Assembly: GCA_011033025.1 (NCBI GenBank)
Contig: WFMF01000295.1
Span: 124,001-188,000, forward strand
Origin: Beroe forskalii
Taxonomy: Eukaryota > Ctenophora > Nuda > Beroida > Beroidae
Direction: 5' to 3'
DNA: 64,000 nt
The first letter of the stretch is position 1, and every line of letters begins with the position of its first letter. Of the stretch, positions 6,049 through 37,410 are shown piece after piece. The position numbers and the translations under genes are program-made. The notes under the pieces were generated by a model, which saw only the letters and a list, made by a program, of their open reading frames with translations, made no database searches and was not told the DNA's origin.

Positions 6049-6480
6049 ATTAACGCCGATCGGCAAAGTTTTGCGGAATAGAACGGTGGCGCGCACCGCC
6101 CGCTTCTAAAGCCCGCATATGGCATAGGTGTACGTGTGTACGCGCCGCGCGCTTGCTCTAACCAGATCCCTAGTTGCTAGGTTCACGCGCGCGGCGCTTC
6201 CCTGTGGAAGTGCACCGCACATCGCAAACAGGAATATACGTGGCGTGTTTAGAAAGCCGCGCACGAAGGACTAAAAGAAGAGGGCTCTGGTTATATAAAC
6301 ATTTTTTAACAAAGTGTTTGTACGTGTATGCACGCCAAGCAGCGCTACAATTCGGTGCCGCGCCGCGCGTTTCCATTTTCCTCATTTCCTGCGGTGTATG
6401 GGTACGGTTCCCCTAATCAGGGGCGCAAAACCAGGGCGCAGGTTAGGACAGGTACGCGCGCCGCCGCGCTGCACGCTTCC
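6044..6480. repeat. GC-rich dispersed repeat, copy 1 (pair with 36973-37410)
   Basis: Starting at AACTGATTAACGCCGATCGG, this about 430 bp stretch matches 36973-37410 nearly base for base, including the CGCGCGC-rich blocks and the TACGTGTATGCACGCC and TGGTTCACGCGCG-type segments. It is dense in CG dinucleotides, unlike the AT-rich surroundings. It contains pieces of the short palindromic element described at 6701-6765. No credible coding sequence was found in it. Confidence 0.8.
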
Positions 6481-6700
6481 CTACGGGACACACTGTTGAC
6501 TGTGCTTGGGAGCGTGCCGCGCGAGCCAAACACGGATATACGTGCGCGAAACCAGGGCGGTGGTTAGGGTAAATGCGGTTTTAAGCTTAGGAACGCATAC
6601 TCAGCTCAGCTCATATCTATGCGGGCTTATGAATGCGCGCTGTCGCGCGGTGCTGACGCCAGCCTAGCCGCTTCGCAGCTACTGTCAGCGGGTCAGGCAT

Positions 6701-6765
6701 TGCTAAACACGTATATTCCTGTGTGGCTCGCGCCGCGCGTACACACACCTATGCGGGCTTAGGAA
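6701..6765 (+). mobile_element. 65 bp palindromic mini-element with 10 bp target duplication
   Basis: The element runs from TGCTAAACACGTATA to ATGCGGGCTTAGGAA. It is bounded on both sides by the perfect 10 bp direct repeat GGTCAGGCAT (6691-6700 and 6766-6775), and the bases outside the repeat differ. Its two ends are imperfect inverted repeats: CTAA, C, G and ATA are conserved in register over about 15 bases. The centre is CG-rich. It has no coding capacity. The same termini with a different 10 bp duplication occur at 36860-36944. Older fragments are scattered across 6.0-8.2 kb and 36.8-37.8 kb. I recognise no named family. Confidence 0.8.
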
Positions 6766-6784
6766 GGTCAGGCATAGCGATCGT

Positions 6785-7200
6785 AAAAATAACTTATCCT
6801 TCTTCTGAGACATTGTAAAACAAGGATAGTGTTATTTTTTCTTTCAAAATAAAAAAATAACTTATCTCTTCAGGGGATTGACAATGTACTGTAATGATAC
6901 TTATTCTTTTCTTTTCAAAAAGTCAGAAAAATAACTTATCCTTCTGGGACACACTCGTGTTTCAGAGAGGAATTTTTCTTTCAAAATAGAAAATAACTTA
7001 TCCTTCTGGACACACTCGTAATAGGATGAGATTATTTTTCTTTTCAAAAATAAAAATAACTTATCCTTTGGGACACCTGTACCAGAGTGATAAGTTATTT
7101 TTTTAAAAAATAAAAATAACTTATCCTTTTGGGATATTCCCATGATGTTATTTTCTATTTTTAAAATGTATAACTTATCCTTCTGGTACACCGTATCAGG
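6785..7200. repeat. Tandem array of about 60-70 bp units
   Basis: The core AATAACTTATCCTTCTGGGA recurs at about 6790, 6857, 6931, 6993, 7056, 7116 and 7170, each followed by a short variable piece and a T-rich then A-rich block. The pattern produces a repetitive minus-strand reading frame (KDKLFLFLK motifs) that reflects the repeat and is not a gene. Units differ from each other by substitutions and small indels, so the array is not fresh. Confidence 0.85.
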
Positions 7201-7478
7201 TTGGTGTTCAAATAAGGAGTTGGAGAAAAGTCTTGCAGATTGATGTCTCGAAGAAAGATTTCTTTTTAATTCAAATAAAATTATCCTGCTATCTAAAATG
7301 TCACATTTTGAAAAATAATTAGCTATTCCTATTAAGGCAGCGTTTAATAATGCTATAATGTCTAATAAATCGGAGTTATCTTGCCTGGTGTTGCTAAACA
7401 CGTATATCCCTGTTTGGCTCGCTTCCCCCCGTAGCGTAGGGAAGCGGGCGGCGCTTGCTAAATGCGTATTTCGGTAGG

Positions 7479-7685
7479 TCTCCCATATAAACGGGAGCCT
7501 TCATTATCTATGACAATGACGTCACTCAGAAAAATATAATTAAGCGCACCTAGCGCTTTAAGGACTAGGGTTAGGGTCTGGATTAGGGTCAAGATTTATT
7601 AGGGTTAGGATTAGGGTTATGGTTAGGATACAGAAAAATTGACGTTTAGATCTGTGACGTCACTCAGAGCCGTTTATATGGGAGA
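7479..7685. mobile_element. Inverted-repeat element enclosing a telomere-like tract
   Basis: TCTCCCATATAAACGG at 7479-7494 is repeated in inverse orientation at 7670-7685. Just inside, GACGTCACTCAGA occurs on both sides (about 7520 and 7657). The centre (about 7560-7628) is a degenerate series of TTAGGG-type hexamers. The arrangement resembles a small non-autonomous element of about 207 bp that carries telomere-like sequence. Confidence 0.65.
7560..7628 (+). repeat. Degenerate TTAGGG-type (telomere-like) tract
   Basis: Motifs TAGGGTTAGGG, ATTAGGG and GGTTAGGA recur through about 70 bases with interruptions. TTAGGG is the telomere repeat of most animals outside arthropods. The tract is internal and interrupted, so it is not a chromosome end. 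Confidence 0.75.
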
Positions 7686-8213
7686 GATACCCGTATATCC
7701 CTGTTTGCGTTGCGCGCTTCCTCAGAAGGGAAGCGCCGTGCGCGTACACACTGTTTCCTAAGCCCGCATAGGTGTGTTTACGCGCCGCGCGCTTCCCACA
7801 CAGGGATATACGTCGCGTGTTTAGCGTAGGCTTAGGAAGAGCGGCGCGTACACACATAGCCAGACGTTGCCTGCCCCATATTTTTTCTCATTTCTGCGAG
7901 TCGGGGCGCGCGCGCGAGGGGGCCAGGCAACGCCTGGCAATACACACACCTATGCGGGCCCGGGCTTAGAAGTTAGAAAGAATAAACCCGGCAACCTGCA
8001 TAGGTGTGTGTACAGTTTGTTAAACACGTATACCCTTGTTATCGTCGCGCTTCCTCAGTGAAGCCGCGTTGTCAGACCCCTACACCTTCGGTGGGCGCGC
8101 GCGGGCTTTTTTACAGTGCACGCGCCGTGTTAAGCAAAGGGAAGCGCGCGGTGCGTACAAACATCTATGCGGGCTTTAGACTTGTTCAGAATTTTGATAA
8201 TTCAGATTTTTGA
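7685..8213. repeat. Nested fragments of the CG-rich mini-element
   Basis: Pieces of the 6701-6765 element occur in both orientations. The reverse end TTCCTAAGCCCGCATAGG is near 7768, the forward start GTTAAACACGTATACCC near 8018, and the forward end CTATGCGGGCTT near 7950 and 8167. CG-rich centres lie between them. Nesting has scrambled the boundaries and I find no intact flanking duplication here. Confidence 0.6.
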
Positions 8214-25399: not shown

Positions 25400-28818
<3,419 letters not shown>

Positions 28819-30627
28819 TGCAGGATAAAACATTTAAAATGGCGATGTACTTGTATTGATTAAATCTTCATTATTTGAGGCAAAACTCTTTCGTCATATT
28901 ACACATCATCAGTAGGTAGGTATCATGAAGCTATCATTATTATAAAGGATTAAGGGGGTTTAAGCAACCGTGCTTAGTCGGGCTCGTGTGCCGGCTAAAA
29001 ATGGAGTTGAAATACAGCGATTTTTTGCAGGGTAGTAGAAAAATAAATTCTGATTTGAATTAAGGCTTTGCGTAATTAATGCCCAAAATTGGAAATATCG
29101 CGAAAAACAAGATCGAGTTCAAGGTTTAATTCACCAGCTGCACGTGTAGCTAGGTGTGCGAGCGCACGCGCAAAACTGCACGAGCATTTTAACGAAGAAT
29201 CCGCCATTTCGTCATATTGCGTATTTTGGAAACGTTTCAACTGTTGAAATTCATAATTTAAGTTTTCTATGGAATTGTCGAGAACAGAAAAAAGTTTAAA
29301 CAGAAGACTATCGACCATTATGAAAATTACCGATGATTCTTTCATATCAAGGTATTTGTAGTCTCGATGGATTGCTGCGAGAATTCGACGAAAGGAGGAA
29401 TTAATGTTTACTTAAGTTTAAAGTGGGTTATAAACAGATAAAATTTTGATCTCAATGATCTTGGATTCAAATTTTTCGCCCAGACACACAAACTTTAAAA
29501 ACGCAATTGATCATATTATTTCAATTTCAACTGTTCATAATTTTGGTTCTATACCCCCTCTATAGTTCGACCAATTGACCGTGTGTTCAATGGACTATAC
29601 ATCGAATTAAAGAGAAAATCTAACGGGTTTTCCCGTAGCTCTATGATGAAAAAATGCAGTTTATGCAATGTCATCATTGTTTAACACTTAATTAATTGAG
29701 TCTATTGTAAAAATTTCTATGATGTTCTTTCCATGTTGTTCTTTGTTAGTCTTTGTTTTGAATACTTATTACAATACTCATTTCGATAATCATCAATGTT
29801 TGGGTGCAGTATCAATTATAATTTATAAATTTGCGAGGTTTTGAACTATTTTATTTGTACAATGTGCAAGGGTGCCTTTGGTTGATGTACATTTCATTTC
29901 TCTTGCTATGTTGCTATAGACAAAGAGCTAAGTTATTGATTTTCATAATTAATTCGCAAAATTGACACCCAACAAACCCACATTTATAACGGACATTTTT
30001 TATCGACCTGATTTCTAAAAAGCTAAAATGAACATGACCATACAGCAAAGACCCTTTGAATATCCGGAAAATTGCGAAATTTCTCGTTGTAATATTTTGT
30101 CTTAATCTTTGTCCATAATGTCGATTTTAACATGTTACCTAGACACCTGGTGGACAGACACTTGATGGCTGTTACGATATTTGAAAAAAATAGCAATAGG
30201 TATTCCAGATTTCTATTAATATACATGTACATTGTGTGCAATATACATGTTCTGCAAACACGAGATACTTGCTTGTTACTCTGTTTTATTACACTTTTTA
30301 TATGACATTATTTTGTATGCTTTACATGTACGTCACGTATTCTTGTGTAAAGTAAGTGCTTTAGTCACTGTACATGCTATGACAAACTTTTGTTCCAACT
30401 GTTGTGACTTGTGTTTTTCTCTGGTTTTCTGAGGGGGTGGGGACAAAACTGGAAGGAATATGATCGCTTCATTTTCATATTATGCTCATTTAAGCTTTAG
30501 AGCTTTAGGTTTTGACCTTGCATATAGTTTAACGTATAATTGACCGCATAATTGAACGTATCATTTTGTTCCAAACAACCATGGTTTTTTCAAAGACTCG
30601 GATGCTTTTGTAAAAGTACGTTTTATC
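28819..30627 (+). repeat. Segmental duplication unit C (partial, rearranged)
   Basis: The first about 100 bp (AATGGCGATGTACTTGTATT and onward) match the start of units A and B. About 28925-29645 is unlike either. From about 29650 to 30627 the match to unit A resumes (25725-26990), with an internal loss of about 270 bp relative to A near 30130. It ends at about 30627, where unit B starts. There is no gene copy in it. Confidence 0.75.
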
Positions 30628-34490: not shown

Positions 34491-36479
34491 ATGACATCAG
34501 TAGCTCTCATCACGGGAATAACGGGACAAGATGGCTCCTACCTCCTCGATTTCCTCCTGGAGAAAGGTTACTATGTTCATGGCATGACCCGAAGAGTCTC
34601 CAGTATCAATACTAAGCGAATTGACCACGTGTTTGGGCATGAGAGACTGAGTCTGCACTTTGGTGATCTGAGTGATACAGTATCCATGGTGGGGATACTT
34701 CACCACATTCAGGAGAAGTATGATGATCTAAAAATACTGGAGGTGTACAACCTGGGCGCTCAGTCTCATGTCAAAGTCTCGTTTGAAGTTCCTGAGTTTA
34801 CTGCCAATGTTAGTGGGTTGGGCACCCTTAGGATGCTGGAATCAATCAGGATGTGTGGACTGAAAAACAAGACAAGATTCTACCAAGCCTCTACATCGGA
34901 GATCTATGGACTGGTACAGGAAACTCCTCAAACTGAAACTACACCTTTCTACCCCAGATCTCCGTATGGGGCTGCCAAGCTCTATGCTCACTGGATTACT
35001 AAGAACTACCGAGAGTCCTATGGCATCCATGCCTCCAATGGCATTCTGTTTAACCACGAGTCCCCACGACGAGGAGAGACCTTTGTGACAAGGAAAATCA
35101 CAAGAGCAATAGCTGCCATCTCAAAGGGTACACAAGATTTTCTGGTGCTGGGCAACCTGGATTCCCTTCGTGACTGGGGTGATGCTAGGGACTATGTCAG
35201 AGCCATGTGGATGATGCTTCAAAGAGAGGAGCCAGATGATTATGTCATTGCTACAGGAAAACAGTACAGTGTTCGTAACTTTGTGGAGAGGTGCTGCTCT
35301 GCCATGGGCTGGACTATCCGGTGGGAGGGAGAAGGAGTGGAAGAGGTTGGGATAAGAGAGGAAACTGGTAAAGTGATAGTGAAAGTGTCTCCAAGGTACT
35401 TCAGGCCTGCTGAAGTTGATACCCTGCTTGGAGACCCAACCAAAGCCAAGAAAACGTTCGGGTGGGAACCAGAATACACTCTTGATGATACAATCCATGA
35501 CATGCTTGTCTCTGATGGGGCACTTGTAGCAAGTCCATCCAAAGTCTCTGAACGTAAAGGAATCAGGGTTCTGGTTACAGGTGGTTCTGGTTTAGTTGGA
35601 AATGCCATTAAATCCCTCCACCCAGAGTGGTATTATCCAACATCCAAAGAATGCAATCTTCTGGATGAAGAGTCTGTCTTTAGACTATTCAAAGAACTTA
35701 GACCAACACATGTCTTACACTTAGCAGCAAAAGTAGGGGGATTGTACAAAAATATGAGGGAACCAGTGGAAATGCTTGAAGAAAATGTGATGATGAACAC
35801 CAACATCATTAGGGCATGTCACAAGTTTGAAACCAAGCAGCTAGTCATGTGCCTGTCAACATGCATCTTCCCAGATGGTCTGGTGCCATTTACTGAAGCT
35901 GACCTTCACAGTGGTCCACCTCATGATAGCAACTTTGCTTATGCATATGGGAAACGTATGGCTGAGATACAAGCTCGAGCTTACAGACAGAAGTACAACA
36001 CGAATATCAAGTTCATCATTCCAACCAATATCTATGGAACTCATGATAACTTCAGTCTTGAGGACTCTCATGTGATTCCAGGACTCATCCACAAAGCTCT
36101 GATAGCTAAACAAGCTGGAGAGAAGTCACTCCAGATAATGGGGACAGGGAAACCTCTCCGCCAGTTCATTTTTGTGGAAGACTTGGCTCAAATAATGTCC
36201 ATGGTTATGCAGGATGAGGAAGCTCCAGATATGATGATAGCTGCACCCCCAGATGGAGAAGTGAGCATCTTGGAGGTCGCCAACAATATTGCTACCTGCA
36301 TGAACTTGAGCAATGTGAAGTGTGATGAGAGTAAGTCTGATGGACAGTTCAAAAAGACAGCTGATACCAGCGTACTCCAGCAATATTTGAGTGGAAAAAA
36401 CTTCAACTGGACCCCTCTTCAAGAAGGAATAAAGAAAGTATGTGACTGGGTCCAGCATGTAGAACATTTCAGAAAGTAA
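34491..36479 (+). CDS. Bifunctional GDP-mannose 4,6-dehydratase / GDP-L-fucose synthase
   Basis: A single-exon frame of 662 residues joins two enzymes that are separate in most animals (GMDS and TSTA3/GFUS). Residues about 1-350 are the dehydratase: the NADP-binding [10 protein letters not shown] lies at 8-17, STSEIYG at 134-140 supplies the Thr/Glu pair, and YGAAK at 159-163 is the catalytic Tyr/Lys. The DWGDARDYV block near 230 is also typical. Residues about 358-662 are the epimerase/reductase. They have a second Rossmann motif (VTGGSGLVG), CLSTCIFPD with the likely catalytic Cys458, YAYGK with Tyr484/Lys488, the likely catalytic His527 ([10 protein letters not shown]), and SDGQFKKT near the end. 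Together the two halves would convert GDP-mannose to GDP-L-fucose in the cytosol. All key residues are present. Upstream sequence is shared with copy 2. AATAAA follows the stop within about 20 bases. Spliceosomal introns are absent, suggesting retroposition of the ancestor or an intronless foreign origin. Confidence 0.95.
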
Positions 36480-36500: not shown

Positions 36501-36859
36501 TGATTGCTTACATTCAGATGAATGCTCATTAGCAGAATTCCCATATTACATTATCGCATATTATGACTCCATATGCAGTATTATTCTTAACACTTTTTCA
36601 GGGGCTGGGGCCCTAGTAAGACTTAGATATTAAGCAATCTTTAAGCAATTATTATTTTTCAATACATTAATTATATCCCCTGATATTCCAGTGCAATTTC
36701 CGTGAAACATTGAATTGATTTTTCTTCATCTTCAACAAATCAGTTTTTCAATGTTCTTTGAATTCCAGGGATAAAGATCATGAGCTTCATTTCAAGGAGA
36801 CTGAAACACTTAGATTTTCAGTTACAAAAATTGTTCATGCCAACTTTGGCATCGGACAT

Positions 36860-36944
36860 TGCTAAACAAGTATATCCCTGTCTGCGCGCTTCCTCAGGTA
36901 GCGCTGCGCGATCGCGAGTACGCACACCTATGCGGGCTTAGGAA
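36860..36944 (+). mobile_element. 85 bp palindromic mini-element with 10 bp target duplication
   Basis: It starts TGCTAAACAAGTATATCCCT and ends ACCTATGCGGGCTTAGGAA, the same termini as the 65 bp copy at 6701-6765. It is flanked by the perfect 10 bp direct repeat CATCGGACAT (36850-36859 and 36945-36954), a different target from the other copy. The centre is CG-rich (AGCGCTGCGCGATCGCGA) and about 20 bp longer. Non-coding. Confidence 0.85.
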
Positions 36945-36972
36945 CATCGGACATGCAGCGCGCTATTCAACT

Positions 36973-37410
36973 AACAGTGAAACAACTGATTAACGCCGAT
37001 CGGCAAAGTTTTGCGGAATAGAACGGCGGCGCGCGCCGCGCGCTTCTAAAGCCCGAATAGGTGTACGCGCCGCGCGCTTGCTCTAACATCTAACCAGATC
37101 CCTAGTTGCTAATAGGTTCACGCGCGCGGCGCTTCCCTGTGGAAGTGCACCGCACAACGCAAACAGGAATATACGTGTTTAGAAAGCCGCGCACGAAGGA
37201 CTAAAAGAAGAAGGCTCTGGTTATGTAAACGTTTTTTACAAAGTGTTTGTACGTGTATGCACGCCGAGCAGCGCTTATACAATTCGGTGCCGCGCCGCGC
37301 GTTTCCATTTTCCTCATTTCCTGCACGGTGTATGGGTACGGTTCGGTTCCCTTAATCAGGGGCGCGAAACCAGGGCGCAGGTTAAGGCAAGTACGCGCCG
37401 CACGCATCCC
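36973..37410. repeat. GC-rich dispersed repeat, copy 2 (pair with 6044-6480)
   Basis: This is the near-identical partner of the stretch at 6044-6480, starting CAACTGATTAACGCCGATCGG. Differences are mainly small indels. Lying next to the insertion at 36860, it makes the layout around this gene copy resemble the left end of the window. Confidence 0.8.

Follow-up and report, generated by a model that had tools for sequence, protein, structure and literature searches.

Genes and repeats at the locus

The window, a 64,000-nucleotide stretch of the Beroe forskalii genome (contig WFMF01000295.1), contains open reading frames that include a RINGv protein, an MFS transporter, a C2H2 zinc-finger protein and a GDP-mannose dehydratase/GDP-fucose synthase. 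The last of these is one 662-aa frame on the + strand (34491-36479), in which GDP-mannose 4,6-dehydratase (residues ~1-346) is fused to GDP-L-fucose synthase (~357-655), two enzymes that are usually separate proteins. Further copies of the fused gene are found at 284-2077 (88% identity across most of the gene, with numerous gaps) and at 27967-28828 (97% identity in the first ~865 bases, 10 gaps); judged from these alignments, both are likely decayed duplicates. A comparison of the window with Rfam yielded no match.

An initial annotation, made from the window sequence alone, had described a 65-bp element between two 10-base repeats, with a second copy at 36860 carrying a flanking repeat of its own. 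Both pairs of repeats are present: GGTCAGGCAT occurs at 6691-6700 and again at 6766-6775, with TGCTAAACACG...GGGCTTAGGAA between them, and CATCGGACAT lies on both flanks of the second copy, at 36850-36859 and 36945-36954. In the register established in the next section, the features of the family in the window are:

6691-6699, no strand: left 9-bp target-site duplication, GGTCAGGCA
6700-6765, + strand: 66-bp MITE copy, with 2 substitutions relative to a 66-mer present 58 times
6700-6725, + strand: left terminal inverted repeat, TTGCTAAACACGTATA..., imperfect, differing from the right one at 3 of the first 12 bases
6740-6765, - strand: right terminal inverted repeat, TTCCTAAGCCCGCATAGGTGTGTGTA (as - strand)
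6766-6774, no strand: right 9-bp target-site duplication, GGTCAGGCA; the T at 6775 matches the element's first base by chance
8017-8181, + strand: diverged end pair spanning 165 bp; its flanks make no good duplication (3 of 9 mismatches)
36850-36858, no strand: left 9-bp duplication of the second copy, CATCGGACA
36859-36944, + strand: second copy, 86 bp, whose GC-rich middle differs
36945-36953, no strand: right 9-bp duplication of the second copy, CATCGGACA
37044-37185, - strand: third copy, diverged, 142 bp; its flanks GTGCGCGGC and GCGCGCGGC differ at 1 of 9 bases and are GC-rich, which makes them weaker evidence

Clustered direct and inverted pieces of the 66-bp MITE family and of related GC-rich repeats extend from 6089 to 8181. 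Directly beside the window element, at 6785-7190, lies a degenerate tandem array of seven AAAAATAACTTATCC... copies with a spacing of 54-74 bp, and a TTAGGG-like run (TAGGGTTAGGG...) is found within the GC-rich repeat cluster at 7566-7629.

Register, length and target duplication

The register of the element was determined in 264 kb of sequence, made up of the window and twenty 10-kb stretches around similar copies. These stretches (L009-L028) were picked by similarity to the window copy and not by their duplications; they form a non-random sample in which the 66-mer is over-represented. Each left end TTGCTAAACACG (at most 2 mismatches) was paired with the closest right end on the same strand at a distance of 40-260 bp, and a partner was found for 58 of 89 left ends. 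Perfect flanking matches among these 58 end pairs measured 9 bp in 32 cases, 8 bp in three and 7 bp in one, and none measured 10-15 bp; at one mismatch or fewer, 40 of the 58 pairs have a 9-bp duplication. The probability of a 9-base match beside fixed ends is about 4^-9 per pair, which excludes chance as the origin of the flanking matches.

The base that follows the right-hand duplication in the 32 perfect copies is T in 7, A in 11, G in 9 and C in 5, so that T appears at approximately the chance rate. Because T comes next in just 7 of 32, the first T is the element's own and the tenth matching base is coincidental in both window copies. The target duplication is 9 bp, and the element in the window is 66 bp long with the initial T inside it (6700-6765, TTGCTAAACACG...CGGGCTTAGGAA); the lengths of 10 and 65 bp given by the initial annotation are corrected accordingly. 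When two copies are all that is seen, one coincidental base can lead to a 9-bp duplication being taken for a novel one of 10 bp.

That annotation had named copies without flanking duplications, or with duplications of varied length, as what would refute it. In the 264 kb, this check did not refute it: the length is nearly constant where a duplication is present, although 18 of the 58 end pairs, several of them nested or rearranged, are without a 9-bp duplication within one mismatch. Two of these 18, both in stretch L013, represent a single event whose match is 8 bp.

Evidence of insertion

Twenty of the 58 exact 66-mers in the genome were examined, and 16 of them have a perfect 9-bp duplication, two have one with a single mismatch and two have a shorter one (8 and 7 bp). 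The 32 perfect duplications of the end-pair sample comprise 29 distinct sequences, which bears out the earlier reading of a short transposed element with independent target duplications. The target preference is mild and roughly symmetric: G occupies position 1 in 19 of the 29 distinct 9-mers (base frequency ~0.20), and T at position 3 or A at position 7 is found in 29 of 58 places (base frequency ~0.30).

Empty sites were sought under loose rules, and a junction-spanning match was obtained for 17 of 42 copies, some of these being a palindromic neighbourhood that matched itself. Six of the 17 alignments were inspected; four were good, one had a 12-16-base gap beside the junction and one was poor. 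The empty sites, at which the target is present once, include L019 against L038 (92% over 85 bp, with one base of the 9-mer different), L011 against L021 (94% over 69) and L024 against L011 (96% over 56). For L021 against L011 (94% over 36), the insertion lies within the left end of another copy, which shows that the family inserts into itself.

A non-mobile origin, in which a GC-rich repeat was dispersed by segmental duplication and acquired its flanking repeats by chance, would draw on the copies that are nested in other repeats and on at least one insertion that was duplicated together with its flanks (L013). The diversity of the duplicated 9-mers among the perfect copies, together with the empty sites, in our reading refutes this explanation, to which we attach practically no credence.

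Family size and structure in the genome

The 66-bp element is real, mobile, abundant and very short, and forms a new family within an established type of element. Exact-string counts in the 216-Mb assembly, with reversed patterns as control, gave 2067 occurrences of the left end (23 bases; control 0) and 2133 of the right end (22 bases; control 0), in line with the many genomic copies that had been anticipated. One exact 66-mer is present in 58 identical copies. An exact right end on the same strand lies at most 300 bp from 56 of the first 100 exact left ends listed, and the spans of these pairs cluster at 66-68 bp (four at 66, eight at 68), 89-94 bp and 100-108 bp. Thus, 66 bp is one favoured length among several and not the sole one.

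The ends of the family are imperfect inverted repeats of ~26 bp with three differences in the first 12 bases. A length of 66 bp leaves no space for a gene. The family is short and non-coding, with inverted-repeat ends, a target duplication and many copies, and is therefore a MITE family by the usual definition. In the available text of PMC6245586, generic MITEs measure 50-800 bp, with inverted repeats measuring 10 bp or more and duplications of ~2-10 bp; the present family resembles them in size, structure and copy number, and differs in lying near the lower size limit and in having a variable GC-rich middle that occurs in tipped and tipless versions.

The exact left-end 22-mer was found 0 times in viral_contigs and 0 times in genome_contigs, counts that are uninformative on other eukaryotes. 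The 12-base left end, searched as literature text, gave no match, a weak result given that such strings are seldom printed. Likewise, among the records listed by literature text searches, no title or abstract named the 66-bp MITE family, which does not by itself establish its absence from print.

Proposed tip loss and the short form

Longer copies have the same ends as the 66-bp form, together with GC-rich arms and a tip. In some copies of ~94 bp, such as that in stretch L016, both arms around a GC-rich tip carry the 10-mer GCGCGGCGCG in one direction, and deleting one repeat along with everything between gives the middle of the 66-mer. The short form thus matches what would result if ~94-bp copies lost their tip, together with one repeat, by deletion between the GC-rich direct repeats. 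Two or more same-direction occurrences of the 10-mer are present in just 7 of 27 examined end pairs of at least 75 bp, so this route suits only part of the longer copies.

A single insertion that is present twice in L013 is informative in this respect. Until they first differ, the two versions agree over 229 bases on one side and over 15 on the other; they measure 64 bp and 89 bp, and the difference is a 25-bp tip between GCGGCGC repeats. The version with the tip is presumably the older one, and its tip may have been lost by replication slippage or annealing. Single-strand DNA folding of five sequences was not stronger than that of shuffles (z -1.44 to +0.11), so hairpin extrusion is a step that we infer.

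Two subfamilies differ strongly in their proportion of tipless copies. Exact-string counts in the genome gave 124 tipless and 373 tipped copies for the TGTGGCTC subfamily, against 8 tipless and 502 tipped for the TCTGCGTTG subfamily (Fisher p 3e-32, a descriptive value because the copies are related). The right arm of the TCTGCGTTG subfamily is often GCGCCGCGCG, a sequence that forms no direct repeat with the left arm, and the direct repeat occurs twice in 3 of 8 examined longer copies of the TGTGGCTC subfamily versus 1 of 9 of the TCTGCGTTG subfamily.

After its formation, the 66-bp form may have multiplied by transposition or may have arisen many times in place. Many separate in-place deletions, with the short form seldom or never transposed as such, would account for the tip difference within the one duplicated insertion of L013. 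They would also predict the subfamily contrast: tipless copies are common in the TGTGGCTC subfamily, in which some copies contain two occurrences of the direct repeat, and rare in the TCTGCGTTG subfamily, whose right arm is mostly without it. The 58 identical 66-mers would, however, also be expected if one short founder had spread, and because the right arms differ, the unequal ratios fit in-place direct-repeat deletion and a single short founder alike and do not discriminate between them. We regard an origin wholly or almost wholly in place as a serious possibility that falls somewhat short of probable. Tipped and tipless versions offer a natural test of MITE shrinkage and of whether an end-to-end unit this small can move alone.

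Probable superfamily assignment and the transposase

Among eukaryotic DNA transposons, it is Mutator that typically leaves a 9-bp duplication. The hAT target duplication is 8 bp; of the 58 end pairs, 3 are perfect at 8 bp and 32 at 9 bp, and hAT was rejected as a candidate. The available text of PMC6446971 gives target duplications of 8-11 bp for MULEs, a range within which the 9-bp duplication of the 58 end pairs (264 kb) falls, and that of PMC6245586 gives 9-10 bp as the Mutator duplication and 50-800 bp as the length of MITEs. The initial annotation had held that the element fits no MITE superfamily. According to these sources, 9 bp and even 10 bp are ordinary for Mutator-like elements, and the claimed novelty fails because of a one-base misregister and the omission of Mutator MITEs from the comparison.

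The genome contains 46 matches to PF10551 (MULE), several of them in long open frames, which constitute a candidate source of transposase; a FLYWCH finger is joined to the MULE domain in 3 of 4 frames scanned. The element is probably a non-autonomous DNA transposon (MITE) of Mutator type that owes its small size to tip loss. A transposase supplied in trans would recognize the two imperfect ~26-bp ends, movement would be by cut-and-paste through a MULE-type enzyme, and insertion at a staggered cut would be followed by repair that duplicates 9 bp. Membership of the Mutator group is something we infer, on the strength of the duplication and of the transposases that the genome offers, because no transposase-bearing relative was found. 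The family adds an abundant MITE, probably of Mutator type, whose size approaches the minimum for mobile DNA.

The longer, transposase-bearing relative with the same ends for which the initial annotation had called was not found in the 264 kb or in the 5 of 46 MULE and 15 of 35 Merlin loci examined. In the five MULE stretches (4.5-5 kb), no MULE transposase was found on an element with TTGCTAAACACG/TTCCTAAGCCCG ends; loci L045 and L047 show a weak likeness to these ends (6-7 of 22 mismatches), the L045 pair being without a duplication. The MULE and Merlin stretches span 3.2-5 kb and may miss an end. End coordinates were also compared by eye with MULE places, using the listed 100 of 2067 left ends, 100 of 2133 right ends, and 100 of 112 and 56 of 56 atypical ends. 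Among the ends listed, one left end lies within reach of a MULE place (C160) and belongs to a separate copy of 347 bp, whose duplication has 1 mismatch. No end pair longer than 300 bp has a perfect 9-mer in the 264 kb, one at 384 bp having a mismatch, and none of the long same-strand end spans on C14, C25 and C1 (1.4, 3.9 and 8.0 kb) has a matching duplication. Comparison of the end-coordinate lists gave one further feature:

C314, 71288-79017: candidate end pair

Merlin (IS1016/IS1595-type) transposases were considered as an alternative mover, since Merlin duplications are 8-9 bp and PF12762 has 35 matches in the genome. Across the 15 Merlin loci examined, of ~3.3 kb each, the sole end resemblance has 6 of 22 mismatches (L034). 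Among the matches listed, L033, L040 and L041 have GGCAGT... ends with 8-bp duplications, against the 9 bp of the 66-bp family, and we consider movement by Merlin very unlikely. Long GGCTAGCC/CCGG-type repeat arrays near the ends were observed at two PF12762 loci, L033 and L037, among the matches listed.

A different transposase, perhaps an undescribed one, that cuts with a strict 9-bp stagger would explain why no autonomous partner appeared in the places examined and why the ends are unlike those of any MULE or Merlin locus examined. Absence from 5 of 46 MULE and 15 of 35 Merlin matches weighs weakly, and MULE families need not have end sequence in common; such a mover is unlikely. A more specific proposal, that a strictly 9-bp-duplicating family with a transposase of no described clade mobilises a 66-bp unit made almost entirely of binding ends and kept small by repeated tip loss between built-in direct repeats, is in our estimate quite improbable.

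Several described systems come close to the present family. The available text of PMC5225508 reports 8-9 bp duplications for the Muta1/Muta5 MULE derivatives of Aedes aegypti. These resemble the present family in duplication length (9 bp here) and in forming many short derivatives with common ends, and FLYWCH-MULE transposases occur in the Beroe forskalii genome. Unlike Muta1, which according to the same text has 145-bp inverted repeats and subterminal repeats, the family has ~26-bp imperfect ends and a total length of 66 bp, and its autonomous partner was not found. Similarly, 9-bp-duplicating MULE groups in the available text of PMC6446971 have inverted repeats of 26-400 bp (Rehavkus), 34 bp (Phantom-Ca) and 42-46 bp (group 16 sub-group Sm). 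They share a 9-bp duplication and short ends with the present family, compared here by description and not by end sequence, and differ from it in being coding elements.

Two other MULE-containing structures were observed in the genome. A 3-kb FLYWCH-MULE element (L044:908-3923), with the 9-bp flanking repeat TTCAAAATA and ends GATTCCAGGTCTGAATACCC (GATTCCAGGTCTG...), is a candidate Mutator element of another family. At L048:1696-4168, a MULE-coding stretch lies between 117-bp inverted repeats that are 98% complementary.
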